From the NCBI GenBank assembly GCA_002700385.1, contig PADC01000008.1, positions 102,485 to 166,484 on the forward strand: DNA of 64,000 nucleotides. The letters run 5' to 3'. Both the position numbers and the translations under genes were made by a program. This stretch comes from Cycloclasticus sp. Its GTDB lineage: Bacteria > Pseudomonadota > Gammaproteobacteria > Methylococcales > Cycloclasticaceae. The stretch's first letter is position 1. Every line of letters begins with the position of its first letter. Positions 6,110 to 48,270 of this stretch are shown here, piece by piece. The notes under the pieces are model-generated. The model had not been told where the DNA came from. It saw only the letters and a list, made by a program, of their open reading frames with translations, and ran no database searches.

Positions 6110-6184
6110 TTTTACCAATCAATAAAATCTCTCTAACATGATTTTTTACACGCTATAATTACGACAAAAAAACCAGTTAAGCCT

Positions 6185-7525
6185 ATGCCTAACTCTCAGC
6201 CAGATCAAGATTTAACCATAGGTTCTATTTACCGCCATTTAATCCGACTCGCCATTCCTGCTTCTATGGGAATGTTTTTCAATACTTTATACAACCTGAG
6301 CGATAATTGGTTTGCTGGAAAAATATCAGATGACGCGCTGGTCGGTTTATCTATTTCGAGTATTGTTTTTTATCTATTTATAGGCTTGTTAGCTGGGTTG
6401 CAGAATGGCACGTCCGTCATGGTCTCAACAGAAATTGGCCTTAAAAATCCTTTTAATTTAAAACGAATTCTTAAAAACACGGTTGGCCTTAGTCTTTTGT
6501 TTTCAGTCGGCATTGTTTTTTTAGGGCTGGTCTTTGCTAAAGATGCGATAGGTTTTCTCAGTCATCATGATAACGTTAGCGAACTGGCTTGGGACTACAT
6601 TCATATTTTAATTCTTGGCAATGTTGCTTTTTCTCTAAGCAGCGTTGCTGCTGGTGCTCTTATAGCACTGGGTGACACAGCATCGAACCGTAATGCCTTA
6701 ATTGTCGGGTTTTTTGCTAATTTGCTACTTAACCCCTTTTTAACTTTTGTTTTGAATATGGGGGTTGCAGGACTGGCCTGGGCCACCCTTATTATCAAGC
6801 TCGCATCTGCACTTTATTTATTTATTATTTTATGTAAAAAATTGGGGTATACGCCTATGCCCACTGTCGAGAAAAGCATCTCAAGTGCCATCTTGCGGCA
6901 AGTATTACCCGCCAGTTTTAATTTTCTTATTATGATTTTTGGCAGCCTTATTATCACCGGTTTTGTAAGCCAATTTGGTGATTATGCGGTGGCTGGTTAT
7001 TCAGTGGGTTTACGGCTTGAACAAGTGCTTTTACTGCCTGCTCTTGGTTTAAATACCGCTGTATTGGCTATTTCAGGGCAAAACTTTGGCGCTAAAAATT
7101 ACCGTCGCATCGCAGAAACTTACCGCAAAGGGCTTATACTCAGCTTATCCATTTCTTTTGCCTGCATACCGATAATGGTTTTTTTATCACCTTTATTGAT
7201 GAGTTTTTTTAGTCAACAACAAGCGATTATTGATGTAGGAACATCCTATTTAAGAATCGATGCCATCGCTTTTTTTTGTTACGTTTCTTTATTCATAAGC
7301 GTGGCGACGCTTCAAGCAATCAAACAGCCTGACTTTCCCGTTATTATGGGCTTATTCAGACAACTCATTTTACCTTTCCTCGTCAATGTTATTCTTATTA
7401 CTCACTTCGACTTCGGCATTGAATGGATTTTCGGTTCGGTAGCCTGCATTGTTTTTACCAGTATGATTATTACACTGCTTTATACCCGATCGAAATTAAA
7501 AAAGCTGGCGATAACTGGCACTTAA
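6185..7525 (+). CDS. MATE family efflux transporter
   Basis: A 446-residue inner-membrane protein with about twelve hydrophobic segments in two homologous halves. The N-terminal IPASMGMFFNTLYNLSDNWFAG segment is typical of the NorM/DinF superfamily, which exports drugs or organic cations in exchange for Na+ or H+. Its length is normal. It is transcribed alone and divergently from the MaoC remnant. Its last four bases overlap the convergent glycerophosphodiesterase gene. The substrate is unknown. Confidence 0.88.
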   Translation: MPNSQPDQDLTIGSIYRHLIRLAIPASMGMFFNTLYNLSDNWFAGKISDDALVGLSISSIVFYLFIGLLAGLQNGTSVMVSTEIGLKNPFNLKRILKNTVGLSLLFSVGIVFLGLVFAKDAIGFLSHHDNVSELAWDYIHILILGNVAFSLSSVAAGALIALGDTASNRNALIVGFFANLLLNPFLTFVLNMGVAGLAWATLIIKLASALYLFIILCKKLGYTPMPTVEKSISSAILRQVLPASFNFLIMIFGSLIITGFVSQFGDYAVAGYSVGLRLEQVLLLPALGLNTAVLAISGQNFGAKNYRRIAETYRKGLILSLSISFACIPIMVFLSPLLMSFFSQQQAIIDVGTSYLRIDAIAFFCYVSLFISVATLQAIKQPDFPVIMGLFRQLILPFLVNVILITHFDFGIEWIFGSVACIVFTSMIITLLYTRSKLKKLAITGT

Positions 7526-8193
7526 GCAGGTCGACGATCTGGAAAATCACTGAACACGGCATCCACACCGATTTTCTCCATTTTCTCCATTTCTTTACGA
7601 TCATTAACGGTATAGACATAGAGCTTTAAGCCAGAACGATGGGCTTTTTTAATGATATCCAATGTTAATTGTTGCTGGTTTATGTGAAGTGAAAAAGCCT
7701 TCAGCTTGATACACCAATCAAAGGACTCGTCTAAATTATGACTCGCCAATACCCCAATTTTTAAGCCACTATTCCATGCTCTAAGGGTCCTTAGTTCTTC
7801 TATTAGAAACGAAGAAATCAACAGTTTTTCATGATCATCGAACAACGGGTTATCCAGTATCTTTATCAACGCATCAGATGAACCCTTCCCCTTTAACTCA
7901 ATATTTAAGTCAACCACTCCATGCGTCACCGCCAAAACTTCTGGTAATGTGGGTATTTTTTCCCCTAACCCGGCATCTAATCGCCTGATTTCTTCAAAGC
8001 TATAGTTCTCCAGTCTTCCACGCCCATTAGTTGTTCTCTCCAATGTTTCATCATGAAGAACGATCAAGTCTTCGCCCAATAAATGAACGTCTACCTCCAC
8101 ACAATCAACACCTAATTCCATGGCTTTACGAACCGATAACAGGGTATTTTCGGGAGCATAACCCTTGGCCCCTCGGTGACCAATCATTAACAC
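7522..8193 (-). CDS. Glycerophosphodiester phosphodiesterase
   Basis: A 223-residue GDPD-family TIM-barrel enzyme that hydrolyses glycerophosphodiesters to glycerol 3-phosphate and an alcohol. The opening MIGHRGAKGYAPENT carries the catalytic HR pair, and EVDVHLLGEDLIVLHDETLERTTNGRG carries the metal-binding Glu-Asp and second catalytic His. No signal peptide is visible, so it resembles cytoplasmic UgpQ. The GTG start in the track has an AGAGG ribosome site 8 nt upstream. The ATG two codons later would be too far from it, so GTG is favoured. It is convergent with, and overlaps by 4 nt, the MATE gene. Confidence 0.87.
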   Translation of the reverse strand: MLMIGHRGAKGYAPENTLLSVRKAMELGVDCVEVDVHLLGEDLIVLHDETLERTTNGRGRLENYSFEEIRRLDAGLGEKIPTLPEVLAVTHGVVDLNIELKGKGSSDALIKILDNPLFDDHEKLLISSFLIEELRTLRAWNSGLKIGVLASHNLDESFDWCIKLKAFSLHINQQQLTLDIIKKAHRSGLKLYVYTVNDRKEMEKMEKIGVDAVFSDFPDRRPA

Positions 8194-8297
8194 GATACAT
8201 GCCTCTTAATTTGATAGAGCAAAGTACTCCAGCCAAAGTCTATAAGGAATCCTTAAAAAAGGATAGAATATCATTCTTTCCCAAAGGTTCTTAACGG

Positions 8298-9437
8298 ATG
8301 ACCAACGATCTAAGCACTGAATTTAATTTAGATGATAACGTTATTTATCTAAACCATGCAGCGGTTGCCCCTTGGCCCGTCCGAACTGAAAAGGCGGTTA
8401 ATGCCTTTTGCCGTGAAAACGTCACAATAGGATCCAAAAAATACGCTCATTGGCTGACTGTTGAAAATCGATTAAAAAATCAATTAGCTCAACTGATCAA
8501 TGCACCATCAGTAGATGAAATCGCTCTGGTTAAAAATACATCAGAGGCTCTTTCTTTTGTGGCTTATGGACTGAATTGGACAACAGGCGACAAGGTCGTG
8601 ACCAGCGACGAAGAGTTTCCATCCAATATGATTCCATGGGAATCACTGGCAAACCAAGGCGTGCAAGTAAACAAAGTACACCTCAAGGATGCTGACGACC
8701 CAACGGCTGCCTTAATAAGCCAACTGGATGACCAGACAAAACTACTCACCATCAGTTCTGTTCAATATGCATCGGGGTTACGCGTTGATTTAGAGCGCTT
8801 GGGGCATGCCTGCCAGGATAAAGGTATCCTTTTTTGCATAGACGCCATCCAATCAATAGGGGCTTTCCCGGTTGACGTTCAAAAGTACAATGCGGACTTT
8901 ATGATGGCTGACGGGCATAAATGGATGCTTGGCCCTGAAGGTCTGGGTGTTTTTTACTGTCGACAATCGGCTATTAACAAACTCAAACTCACTCAATATG
9001 GTTGGCATATGGTTGAAGAGATGGGAAATTATGATAACCCTGAGTGGACAACAGCCAGCTCTGCAAGACGCTTTGAATGTGGCAGCCCAAACATGCTCAG
9101 TATTCACGCGTTATCAGCCAGCATCAGCTTACTGCTAGACATTGGTATGGATACCGTATCAAAGGAAGTTATTAAGCGCGGTCATTATGTCATCGAAAAA
9201 GTGCTTCAAAACCCCTCTTTAGAATTATTAACAAACCCAGATAATGACGGGAATAATATTATCGTTTTCAAATCAAAAAACGGGCTAACGGATTCTCTAT
9301 TTGATGACCTGACAACTCGACAGGTAGTTTGCGCTAAACGAGGTGGCGGCATTCGGTTTTCACCACATTTTTATACTCCTTTTGAGGTCATTGATCGCGC
9401 TTTTGCTTTAATTGAACAATATCAAGCGGCACGTTAA
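8298..9437 (+). CDS. Aminotransferase class V-fold PLP enzyme
   Basis: A 379-residue class V aminotransferase/cysteine-desulfurase-like protein. The N-terminal YLNHAAVAPWP is the usual opening of this family. ALVKNTSEALSFVAYGL contributes to PLP phosphate binding, and the Schiff-base lysine is in DGHKWMLGPEGLG near residue 206. The loop with an active-site cysteine typical of SufS/IscS is not recognisable, and no iron-sulphur genes flank it. A general aminotransferase or lyase role is therefore more likely than cluster assembly. It lies 87 nt upstream of ispG in the same direction, but a shared transcript is not certain. Confidence 0.82.
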   Translation: MTNDLSTEFNLDDNVIYLNHAAVAPWPVRTEKAVNAFCRENVTIGSKKYAHWLTVENRLKNQLAQLINAPSVDEIALVKNTSEALSFVAYGLNWTTGDKVVTSDEEFPSNMIPWESLANQGVQVNKVHLKDADDPTAALISQLDDQTKLLTISSVQYASGLRVDLERLGHACQDKGILFCIDAIQSIGAFPVDVQKYNADFMMADGHKWMLGPEGLGVFYCRQSAINKLKLTQYGWHMVEEMGNYDNPEWTTASSARRFECGSPNMLSIHALSASISLLLDIGMDTVSKEVIKRGHYVIEKVLQNPSLELLTNPDNDGNNIIVFKSKNGLTDSLFDDLTTRQVVCAKRGGGIRFSPHFYTPFEVIDRAFALIEQYQAAR

Positions 9438-44447: not shown

Positions 44448-44924
44448 TTATTGCCTAAACGTTGCGTGACAACCAACACACGAGGTCATGGTTGTATTTA
44501 AGGCCCGAAGTGAGGCTTGAAGGTCACCTGTTTTAAGTGTTTTCGCTAATTCGTCCCCACTTTCATGAAATGTCATCCCCATCGTTTTAAATGTTTCATT
44601 GCCTATTCGATGACACATTTTCATCATCCGTTTATTCATGCCTAATTGTTTACTGGCGACGTCTGATGCGCTGTTAAAATCGTTTTCAGCCATCAATAAA
44701 ATAGTTTGCCGCACAGCATCAAGGTGCGCCCGCATATTCGCCAGTTGGTGTTGTTTCATTTTTGGCGATAAATTAAGTGATATCCGATTATCTTCAACAA
44801 GGGGTTTCATGTTCATGCCATGCTTCATTTTGTGGTGCATGCTTTCGTGCTGTGTTTCATCAGACAGAGCCGATGTGCTAACTGCCATAAGAAAAAACAT
44901 TATGAGTGATCGTTTTATCATCAA
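44448..44924 (-). CDS. Cytochrome c'/c556-type periplasmic cytochrome
   Basis: A 158-residue exported protein. A signal peptide (RSLIMFFLMAVSTSALS) is followed by a His/Met-rich stretch (HESMHHKMKHGMNM) and a four-helix domain that ends in one heme site, CVGCHATFRQ. Heme at the extreme C-terminus is the cytochrome c' arrangement. Such proteins bind NO or carry electrons. The His/Met cluster before the domain is unusual and could bind copper. It stands alone with no oxidase or reductase partner nearby. Confidence 0.85.
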   Translation of the reverse strand: MMIKRSLIMFFLMAVSTSALSDETQHESMHHKMKHGMNMKPLVEDNRISLNLSPKMKQHQLANMRAHLDAVRQTILLMAENDFNSASDVASKQLGMNKRMMKMCHRIGNETFKTMGMTFHESGDELAKTLKTGDLQASLRALNTTMTSCVGCHATFRQ

Positions 44925-45191: not shown

Positions 45192-45791
45192 GTGTATAAA
45201 AAACTAGCCATTCAATCCTTTTTTCTCATTTTTTTCATAACTGGCTGCTATTTAGCCCCCGTTAAACCTACACAAAAGCCGCTTCCACAAGCCATTTGCA
45301 AGCCTCTTGTTTGCCCTGCCCCAAAAGTTATAAAAAAAATCGTTGAGGTCCAAATTCCTCCTAAAACAGGTAGCAAATTAAACCTACCCATTATTGGCGA
45401 AGTAGAAAAAATACAAATTGAACCGAGCGGTATTACGTATGACGCACGTATTGATACGGGAGCTGAGTCGTCATCCATCCATGCTGAAAATATTCAATTA
45501 ATCGAACGTGATGGGGAAAAATACGTTACTTTTTCATTACGAGACCCAGCAACTGAAACAATGGTTAAATTAGAACGAAAATACCGCCGGAAAGTGTTAA
45601 TAAAACAAAAAGTGGGCAAGCATGAACGACGTTATGTAGTAACATTTTGGCTTTCATTGGGTGGTATTAAGGAATTAGTTGATGTTACATTAACCAATAG
45701 AAGTGATTTCGACTATAAGCTGCTAATCGGTCGTAATTTACTGACAGATACGGCCATTGTTGATGTCAGCCGTAGGCACGTCATTAAATAG
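45192..45791 (+). CDS. Retropepsin-like putative lipoprotein protease (RimK-associated, DUF785)
   Basis: A 199-residue protein starting with GTG. The signal peptide ends in a lipobox-like ITGC, so membrane lipoprotein anchoring in the periplasm is likely. A spacer with paired Cys-Pro units follows, then a retropepsin-like domain from about residue 70 with the catalytic DTGAESSSIHA and LLIGRNLL flap/terminal motif. This family (often labelled ATP-dependent zinc protease) is repeatedly found with RimK-like ligases. It is followed after 8 nt by the transglutaminase-like membrane protein, forming a three-gene operon. The proteolytic target is unknown. Confidence 0.85.
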   Translation: MYKKLAIQSFFLIFFITGCYLAPVKPTQKPLPQAICKPLVCPAPKVIKKIVEVQIPPKTGSKLNLPIIGEVEKIQIEPSGITYDARIDTGAESSSIHAENIQLIERDGEKYVTFSLRDPATETMVKLERKYRRKVLIKQKVGKHERRYVVTFWLSLGGIKELVDVTLTNRSDFDYKLLIGRNLLTDTAIVDVSRRHVIK

Positions 45792-45799
45792 CGCATTAG

Positions 45800-47329
45800 A
45801 TGAAAATCTCCCCTCGATTACAAATTTCACTGGTGACAGGTATTTTAATCACCTTCGGTCTTGCTTTAACGTTATATAAAAACATTGAATTGGGATTCCC
45901 TTTATCCCCCGGGCAACAACAAACCGTTTGGAAGGTTGAATCAAAAATAAGTTTCGAACCTATTGATGGTCCTGTTAATATTTCCATGGCTTTACCTCAG
46001 GCACAAGCTGGCTGGCAACTATTCAATGAACATTTCGCTTCATCTGGTTTTAGTTTTATCGTTCAAGATAAACAGGGTGTACGACAAGCTGAGTGGGCAC
46101 GCCGATCTCTAAATCAAAAAACAACACTCCATTATAAATTTGAAATTTACCAATCAAATACCATCGATTTAGAAAACATACCGGCACCCAATATTATCAC
46201 CCCTGAACTCACTCCTGATCGCCTAACGGCAATGAAGTCGGTGGTCTCATCACTCAAACAGCATTCAAATAGCCCTGTCAGCTTCACCCAAAATCTATTA
46301 GAAAAACTGCTGCTTGATGATATTGGGCAAAACGCGTCCTTTTTATTAGCAAACAAAGAAAATAGCAAACTGTCTGTCATCATGGATATTTTAGCGTTCG
46401 CTAATGTTCCTCATCATACCGTTAAGGGTATTTTTTTAGAAGATGGCCGACGTCGACAAACCATAGACACACTCATAGAAATACATGATGGAAAACACTG
46501 GCATATCTTTAACCCCTCTTCCGGTGAAAAAGGCTTGCCTGAAAACTTTTTTATCTGGCAGCGCGGGGCTGGATCAATTCTCAACGTAATGGGCGGTAAA
46601 GACTCTCGTCTTGAGTTTGCTCTCGTTAAAAATACTTTACCCCTAAAAACCATCTTGTTTTTAGAACAACATGTTCAAGAACAATTACTGCTCGACTTTT
46701 CCATCTACTCGTTACCTGTCGAACAGCAAGGTGTTTTCAAGGGCTTACTGCTTATTCCTGTTGGTGCATTGGTAGTTGTTTTACTACGCGTATTGGTGGG
46801 GATTCGTACCGCTGGAACGTTTATGCCTATTTTAATTGCATTAGCCTTTGTACAAACAACGTTACTGACTGGCCTGTTTATTTTTCTCTTAGTTGTTGGT
46901 ATTGGTTTATGGATTCGCTATTATTTAAGTTACCTTAATTTACTGCTGGTAGCTCGAATAACAGCCGTCGTCATTGTGGTTATTTTATTAATGGCCACTC
47001 TCAGTATCGTTAGCTATAAACTTGATTTAGATCAATTGCTTACCGTGACTTTTTTACCCATCATAATTCTAGCTTGGACGATCGAAAGAATGTCGATTTT
47101 ATGGGAAGAAGAAGGCGGACATGAAGTTCTCATTCAGGGTAGCGGAAGCTTATTTGCAGCAACACTTTCCTATTTATTAATGTCTGCAGAATTAGTTAAA
47201 CACCTTACATTTAATTTTCCAGAGCTAATGATTAGTTTACTTGGCTTTGTATTATTGCTTGGACGCTATACTGGCTATCGATTAGTCGAATTACACCGTT
47301 TTCGTTACTTAGGCAGACCTGACGAATGA
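45800..47329 (+). CDS. Inactive transglutaminase fused to seven transmembrane helices
   Basis: A 509-residue protein. One N-terminal membrane segment is followed by an extracytoplasmic transglutaminase-like domain (about 25-290) and a block of about seven hydrophobic helices (about 305-495). The family is described as inactive because the catalytic cysteine is missing. Here the expected position reads KLSVIMDILAFANVPHHTVKG with no Cys. The fold still ends in WHIFNPSSGEKGLP. It probably binds peptide or amide substrates rather than crosslinking them. Its stop overlaps the ATP-grasp ligase start by 4 nt, so the two are coupled. Confidence 0.85.
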   Translation: MKISPRLQISLVTGILITFGLALTLYKNIELGFPLSPGQQQTVWKVESKISFEPIDGPVNISMALPQAQAGWQLFNEHFASSGFSFIVQDKQGVRQAEWARRSLNQKTTLHYKFEIYQSNTIDLENIPAPNIITPELTPDRLTAMKSVVSSLKQHSNSPVSFTQNLLEKLLLDDIGQNASFLLANKENSKLSVIMDILAFANVPHHTVKGIFLEDGRRRQTIDTLIEIHDGKHWHIFNPSSGEKGLPENFFIWQRGAGSILNVMGGKDSRLEFALVKNTLPLKTILFLEQHVQEQLLLDFSIYSLPVEQQGVFKGLLLIPVGALVVVLLRVLVGIRTAGTFMPILIALAFVQTTLLTGLFIFLLVVGIGLWIRYYLSYLNLLLVARITAVVIVVILLMATLSIVSYKLDLDQLLTVTFLPIIILAWTIERMSILWEEEGGHEVLIQGSGSLFAATLSYLLMSAELVKHLTFNFPELMISLLGFVLLLGRYTGYRLVELHRFRYLGRPDE

Positions 47330-48270
47330 AATGGACAACACCAAGTAAACTACGCCGACAAGGTATTCTCGGCATGAACAGCCGTAATGTCGATTTTATT
47401 GGTCGCAGTAATGATCGCCACCTTTACCCCTTAGTGGATAACAAATTAAAAACCAAAAAGGCCGCTTTACAGCTTGGTATGTCTGTCCCCAGCTTAATCG
47501 GTGTAATAGAAACTCAACACGATGTTAAATTACTAAAACAGCGGCTAGGCGACGTTAAGCAATTTGTTATTAAACCAGCTCAAGGCAGTGGTGGGAAAGG
47601 CATTCTAGTGATTACTGATCGACAAGGCGATCACTATATTAAAACCTCTTCAGCCAAGTTAAACTTTCGAGGAATTGAGCGACACACGTCTAATATTTTA
47701 AGCGGTTTATACAGCTTAGGCGGGCGCACTGATGTAGCCATGATTGAAGCTTTGATAAGCTTTGACCCTGCACTCAGCAAATACACTTATGAAGGCGTTC
47801 CAGACATTCGAGTTATTATTTACCATGGCTATCCTGTTATGGCGATGATGCGATGCTCAACACATGCTTCTGACGGAAAAGCAAATTTGCATCAAGGCGC
47901 TGTAGGCGTGGGTATTGATATTGCGTATGGGCACAGTCTTTATGCCGTCCAGAATGACCGAATCATTGAAAAACACCCCGATACGGATTGCCACTTTCAC
48001 GATATAAAATTGGCTAATTGGGATAAAGTGCTGCAACTTGCTTCTTCATGTTATGAAATGACAAAGCTTGGATATTTCGGTGCAGATATTGTTTTAGACA
48101 AAAAAAAGGGCCCCGTTATTCTAGAACTCAATGCACGTCCAGGGCTTGCTATTCAAATGGCTAATCAGACAGGCTTAAAGAAACGCTTAAAAGCAATTGA
48201 TAATCTATGTCAGCAAAATCTCTCCGTCGACAAGCGGATTCAATTGGCACAGCATTTATTTAGCAACTAA
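47326..48270 (+). CDS. RimK-like alpha-L-glutamate ligase-type ATP-grasp protein
   Basis: A 314-residue ATP-grasp enzyme. Nucleotide-binding QFVIKPAQGSGGKGILVI lies near residue 85, the central DIRVIIYHGYPVMAMMRCST near 165, and metal-binding VILELNARPGLAIQMAN near 265. The family forms amide bonds by adding amino acids such as glutamate to a carboxyl acceptor. Unlike RimK of E. coli, it travels with a membrane transglutaminase-like protein and a retropepsin-like lipoprotein, suggesting the product is exported or attached at the envelope. The true substrate is not known. Confidence 0.88.
   Translation: MKWTTPSKLRRQGILGMNSRNVDFIGRSNDRHLYPLVDNKLKTKKAALQLGMSVPSLIGVIETQHDVKLLKQRLGDVKQFVIKPAQGSGGKGILVITDRQGDHYIKTSSAKLNFRGIERHTSNILSGLYSLGGRTDVAMIEALISFDPALSKYTYEGVPDIRVIIYHGYPVMAMMRCSTHASDGKANLHQGAVGVGIDIAYGHSLYAVQNDRIIEKHPDTDCHFHDIKLANWDKVLQLASSCYEMTKLGYFGADIVLDKKKGPVILELNARPGLAIQMANQTGLKKRLKAIDNLCQQNLSVDKRIQLAQHLFSN

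Follow-up and report, generated by a model that had tools for sequence, protein, structure and literature searches.

Three adjacent genes of the rloABC type

The window, by which we mean the whole 64,000-nucleotide stretch of DNA analysed here, comes from the 2.5 Mb genome of a gammaproteobacterium, Cycloclasticus sp., and carries on its forward strand three open reading frames with spacings of 8 nt and then -4 nt (Table 1). They encode a retropepsin, a membrane protein in which an inactive transglutaminase domain is joined to a seven-transmembrane (7TM) domain, and an ATP-grasp ligase. Coordinates and spacings given in the initial annotation were matched to the base when the open reading frames were re-checked, and its family assignments and domain anatomy agree with Pfam and NCBIfam. 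An operon of this type was reportedly first predicted in a 2009 comparative-genomics paper on amidoligases. It has since been described in Pseudomonas aeruginosa as rloABC, encoding a secreted retropepsin, a dead-transglutaminase 7TM protein and a RimK-like ATP-grasp enzyme (PA1768-PA1767-PA1766), and is also found in P. fluorescens (Lormand et al. 2025, mBio; PMC12239564). With adjacent genes for PF05618, PF14400 plus PF14402 and ATP-grasp proteins, the window almost certainly holds a copy of this known operon, in the order rloA-rloB-rloC.

Among the NCBIfam models, the best match of RloC (TIGR02291, alpha-L-glutamate ligase-like) exceeds its cut-off of 314.2 bits, and those of RloB (NF052267, RloB; 333 bits, cut-off 900) and RloA (NF052264, RloA3; 86.6 bits, cut-off 210) fall below theirs. 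The RloA and RloB cut-offs look narrow, several of the models being of type 'exception', so the shortfall concerns Pseudomonas-type naming and not membership. The closest named RloB is that of Cycloclasticus sp. 46_120_T64, at 74% identity. Promoter- and terminator-like sites around the operon are no more frequent than in shuffled sequence. Just upstream (44448-44924, reverse strand) lies a probably unrelated gene, whose small product resembles cytochrome c' and carries a CxxCH haem motif at its C-terminal end.

Table 1. Features of the window operon and positions of the related operons with an intact transglutaminase triad
Feature	Position	Strand	Description	Basis
rloA	45192..45791	+	retropepsin-like aspartic peptidase, lipoprotein form, 199 aa, GTG start	PF05618, E 5e-30
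RloA signal peptide	45192..45248	+	lipobox I-T-G-C19	sequence
RloA linker	45249..45389	+	Pro/Lys-rich, from lipid anchor to protease domain, two Cys (C-KPLV-C)	sequence and alignment
RloA catalytic motif	45453..45464	+	DTGA (D88)	alignment
RloA basic positions	45447..45701	+	stretch with R86, R133, R147, R170	alignment with Pseudomonas RloA
rloB	45800..47329	+	N-terminal TM helix, periplasmic beta-sandwich and inactive transglutaminase domain, 7TM domain; 509 aa	PF14402, E 8.5e-103; PF14400, E 1.6e-44
RloB periplasmic part	45893..46642	+	residues 32-281; triad lost (gap / D / N238)	structure model and alignment
RloB 7TM_transglut domain	46643..47314	+	residues 282-505	PF14402
rloC	47326..48270	+	RimK-like ATP-grasp amidoligase, 314 aa	TIGR02291, 440.6 bits; PF14397, E 3.7e-93; PF08443 (RimK), E 1.4e-8
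Active-triad operons, first set	L054:1359-10363, L055:222-7605, L056:8265-13889			
Active-triad operons, second set	L174:6776-12423, L175:6662-12230, L176:5204-10951, L177:2810-8377, L178:3-4338			

Protein anatomy and the lipoprotein form of RloA

A phmmer search of solved structures with window RloA returned the Legionella protein 2pma (E 2.9e-12) and also 9g59 and 9g58. D88 is invariant in all 81 aligned relatives, and R86, R133, R147 and R170 align with K46, R92, R114 and R137 of P. aeruginosa RloA, so that all four basic positions modelled there as polyglutamate contacts are retained; R114 and R137 are required for cutting and for function in vivo (PMC12239564). The lipobox named in the initial annotation is plain in the sequence: RloA opens with an N-terminal hydrophobic stretch that reads MYKKLAIQSFFLIFFITG directly before C19, giving ITGC rather than a plain signal peptide. 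Of 81 RloA relatives, 75 have a lipobox and only one (1/81) has Asp at position +2; the window protein has Tyr there. By the Lol rule, Asp at +2 bears on lipoprotein sorting and another residue leads one to expect the outer membrane, so that Tyr at this position points to outer-membrane sorting of window RloA.

Two forms of RloA can be told apart across the relatives. The form that includes Pseudomonas has a plain signal peptide and a cysteine pair at about +66 to +70 and +113 to +119 from the catalytic Asp, coinciding with the disulfide of the solved structures, whereas the form that includes the window, Vibrio, Aeromonas and Marinobacter usually has a lipobox and lacks this pair; in the alignment, the protease domain of window RloA contains no Cys at all. 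In an RloB tree, built by a quick search and with one very divergent row left out of one version, the lipoprotein, no-disulfide form makes up a single clade of 46 rows with a support of 99, and the RloA form changes state twice over the whole tree. The window locus is of the lipoprotein-RloA subtype. Because the cysteine pair is missing throughout its clade, Vibrio included, the disulfide is a subtype mark and does not define the family. The published description calls the pair conserved in periplasmic orthologues and contains neither the word 'lipoprotein' nor functional work on the lipoprotein form (PMC12239564), which makes the subtype an amendment to that paper. The RloA proteins of Endozoicomonas (L109, L113, L115-L117, L121) are about 390-400 aa long; the alignment of the one at L117 suggests two tandem retropepsin domains, so that a single chain could make up what is usually a dimer.

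In RloB, the absence of the transglutaminase Cys, already remarked in the initial annotation, is confirmed: aligned with active relatives, Cys is replaced by a gap, His by D and Asp by N, and none of the 101 form-I RloB sequences aligned has a Cys at or near the Cys column. The predicted structure (mean pLDDT 85.9) matches the transglutaminase-family protease 3isr over the periplasmic part (Foldseek, E 7e-9). For the 7TM part, none of the best fold matches in the PDB gives convincing coverage, and a PDB sequence search with RloB returned no meaningful match; its residues R330, R373, R430 and E437 are invariant across all operon forms in the alignment. The model of RloC (mean pLDDT 88.8) finds the poly-alpha-L-glutamate synthetase RimK as its best Foldseek match (5zct, E 5e-11), followed by the Glu-adding ligases ArgX and LysX, with D-Ala-D-Ala ligases also among the matches. 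Pfam gives no match to the Rimk_N pre-ATP-grasp domain (PF18030) in window RloC, and its PF08443 match is weak and partial, not that of a full-length RimK ATP-grasp domain. Lacking the pre-ATP-grasp domain and being just 17% identical to RimK in the structural match, RloC may act on a different substrate.

Distribution of the locus and related operon forms

That the three genes should occur together elsewhere, as the initial annotation supposed, holds well. Among the 80 nearest named relatives the order A-B-C is kept in 79, the remaining locus ending at a contig edge, and RloA adjoins RloB in 19 of 20 other form-I loci of a class-level sample. In 299 genomes of the phylum, counting as clear those RloC matches above 250 bits and judging adjacency from coordinates, RloB directly adjoins RloC in 48 of 48. 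The survey of neighbourhoods for a linked acceptor that had been proposed was carried out by clustering the flanking genes of 81 loci, which yielded lineage-level synteny only and no fourth gene recurring beside rloABC. With no gene for a dedicated protein acceptor in the vicinity, the target is more likely to be a free polymer or some general component of the envelope.

Some neighbours are found at individual loci. A succinylglutamate desuccinylase/aspartoacylase-like (AstE/AspA-like) gene with PF24827 lies near rloC at L046:10811-12235; members of its cluster lie near rloC in three more loci (L039, L048, L050), and one (L060) adjoins a RimB-RimK fusion gene in the window's own genome. This metallo-hydrolase might be an exopeptidase for Glu chains. 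We rejected it as a general partner of rloABC, since it is not general and does not stand beside the window operon. At L179:4021-9653, rloABC adjoins a further predicted system for making peptides, a set of Alpha-E, transglutaminase and proteasome-like (Anbu-type) genes.

A related operon retains an intact Cys-His-Asp triad in RloB. It is present at eight loci, three of them gammaproteobacterial (L054-L056) and five from another family of the phylum (L174-L178), where RloB is followed by RloC, a TPR protein of 600-670 aa and a barrel-like protein of about 390 aa. The barrel-like gene is found at seven of the eight and is off the contig at L178; a TPR lipoprotein is encoded upstream at two of the three gammaproteobacterial loci. 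RloA is linked to the operon at none of the eight, and no PF05618 protease was found in five of the eight genomes, two of these five being only 88% complete. Both operon forms occur together in one genome (G033). A third form (L172:5963-8955) consists of a 7TM domain without a transglutaminase domain, RloC and a 315-aa protein that by eye has the look of an outer-membrane barrel and has no Pfam match; a further locus of this form (L173, around 6155-8919) has RloC and a barrel-like protein of about 314 aa, with a PF05618 match about 3 kb upstream of RloC.

Only RloC and the 7TM domain are present in all three forms and so make up a constant core, which fits a pair that synthesises a product and passes it on. 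The intact triad without linked RloA, set against the dead triad with RloA, suggests an exchange of enzymes: the RloB transglutaminase and the retropepsin RloA may, as a tentative idea to which we give rather less than even chances, stand in for each other in the periplasm, processing one and the same RloC product. If so, rloABC would form a single branch of a larger system for synthesis, export and processing, in which the processing enzyme has been exchanged. rloABC itself is already known; for the lipoprotein subtype and the sister operon with a live transglutaminase, no prior description was found in the part of the literature covered.

Proposed pathway, rival readings and known systems

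In P. aeruginosa, rloABC governs hypo-osmotic tolerance, antibiotic sensitivity, biofilm and cell shape. The secreted retropepsins RloA1-3 are required in hypo-osmotic medium, and in vitro RloA cleaves runs of 8 or more Glu, C-terminal as well as internal (runs of 8 or 10 Glu were cut); when rloB or rloC is deleted as well, the triple protease mutant is fully relieved of its osmotic defect and partly of its other defects (PMC12239564). The same genes were recovered in suppressor mutagenesis of flagellar mutants with raised exopolysaccharide (PMC7314104), and the Vibrio orthologues are reported to be VxrB-regulated (PMC12239564). The published cutting and rescue leave the earlier statement that substrate and product are not established only half true: it is outdated in that RloA cuts polyglutamate, and it stands for the physiological substrate and for the product of RloC.

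Sequence and the published work on orthologues show RloA to be a polyglutamate-cutting retropepsin, RloB a 7TM protein of the inner membrane whose periplasmic transglutaminase domain is dead, and RloC a cytoplasmic RimK-like ATP-grasp enzyme, the three acting in one pathway. The explanation that we favour, at slightly better than even chances, is that this pathway handles a Glu polymer made by RloC, passed on by RloB and trimmed by RloA. In the cytoplasm, RloC would build a chain of poly-alpha-glutamate or some other amide-linked product rich in Glu, and the 7TM part of RloB would move the chain across the membrane or open the way for it into the periplasm. The dead transglutaminase domain would bind the chain rather than cut it, and RloA, probably tethered at the inner face of the outer membrane, would trim it. 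Untrimmed product would damage the envelope, in keeping with the published finding that strains lacking the proteases recover when rloB or rloC is lost too. The biological output is tolerance of low osmolarity and of cell-wall stress. The logic of a substrate made inside and handled outside the inner membrane, put forward in the initial annotation, holds; the mechanism itself is inferred. In the known Rim system, free poly-alpha-glutamate is produced by RimK together with RimB (PMC11957791). The predicted fold of RloC, nearest to RimK and then to ArgX and LysX, counts for a Glu polymer, as do the four basic positions retained in window RloA. Against the pathway count the want of a solved relative of the 7TM part among the best fold matches, which leaves export by RloB a prediction, and the chance that RloA cuts polyglutamate only in vitro, an activity it may owe to RimB.

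The parallel with Rim, the same nearness of RloC to RimK and the in vitro cutting of both C-terminal and internal Glu runs would also suit a reversible, S6-like modification in which RloC adds glutamates to one particular protein of the envelope or membrane and RloA, docked on RloB, removes the tail in the periplasm. We consider this unlikely, though it is the strongest of the rivals: no acceptor gene is linked across 80 loci, the search of the P. aeruginosa proteome for RloA targets turned up no cleaved natural target (PMC12239564), and with a cytosolic ligase and a periplasmic protease the protein would need to pass through the membrane in its modified state. Somewhat less probable again is that RloC makes another small amide-linked molecule, such as a modified cell-wall precursor, an amino-acid conjugate or an osmolyte, the cutting of polyglutamate by RloA being incidental. 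Published mutants do show cell-wall-like phenotypes (PMC12239564), the Pfam label of the RloC family is 'sugar-transfer associated' ATP-grasp, and the D-Ala-D-Ala ligases among the Foldseek matches agree with such a product, against which stand the polyglutamate-contact arginines of RloA, conserved in the window and required in vivo in P. aeruginosa.

Does the operon form a further RimK/RimB system whose target is ribosomal protein S6? RloC is distantly related to RimK, as is RloA to RimB, and the initial annotation had named a ligase modifying only S6 as the alternative to its reading. The same genome encodes a 465-aa fusion of RimB and RimK (G000:C12; L060:8741-10135, reverse strand) in which the RimK pre-ATP-grasp domain is complete, and its S6 ends in ...AETAAEE, that is in Glu-Glu, so that RloC is not needed as an S6 ligase, and we rejected it as an S6-specific RimK. 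RloA moreover carries a lipoprotein signal, RloB is always present, and in P. aeruginosa a rimB deletion shows no interaction with rloA deletions (PMC12239564), all of which makes action on S6 highly improbable. A search of the genome for PF14401 (RLAN family) gave no match, nor did its positive control.

The product of rloABC matters because the operon governs envelope stress tolerance and antibiotic sensitivity. Our comparison narrows the question of what this product is, to a constant RloC and 7TM core with a variable processing enzyme and no linked acceptor gene. The form with an active transglutaminase provides an enzyme that can be trapped so as to capture the substrate, and the lipoprotein form of RloA, common to Vibrio and Aeromonas, points to the probable site of trimming.

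Finally, we would like to place the window operon beside the systems already known. With rloABC of P. aeruginosa and P. fluorescens it shares the three families, gene order, predicted topology, the DTGA motif, the four polyglutamate-contact basic positions and the dead transglutaminase. It differs from them in that its RloA, of the lipoprotein form, has a linker and lacks the disulfide cysteine pair of the solved proteases, in that it sits in a separate RloB clade, and in that P. aeruginosa has three RloA proteases whereas a single, operon-linked one, and no second, was found in the window's genome. A lipoprotein RloA without the disulfide is common to the window and to the loci of Vibrio, Aeromonas and Marinobacter. 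S6 glutamylation by RimK-RimB (RimABK) also pairs a related ATP-grasp ligase with a retropepsin; unlike rloABC of the window, it is cytosolic, lacks RloB and acts on S6, and in this genome it is a separate, fused gene. RimB has no signal peptide and is linked to rimK, whereas window RloA has a lipobox and is linked to rloB and rloC; RimK, unlike window RloC, has Rimk_N and a full-length ATP-grasp match, both of which are present in the host's RimB-RimK fusion.
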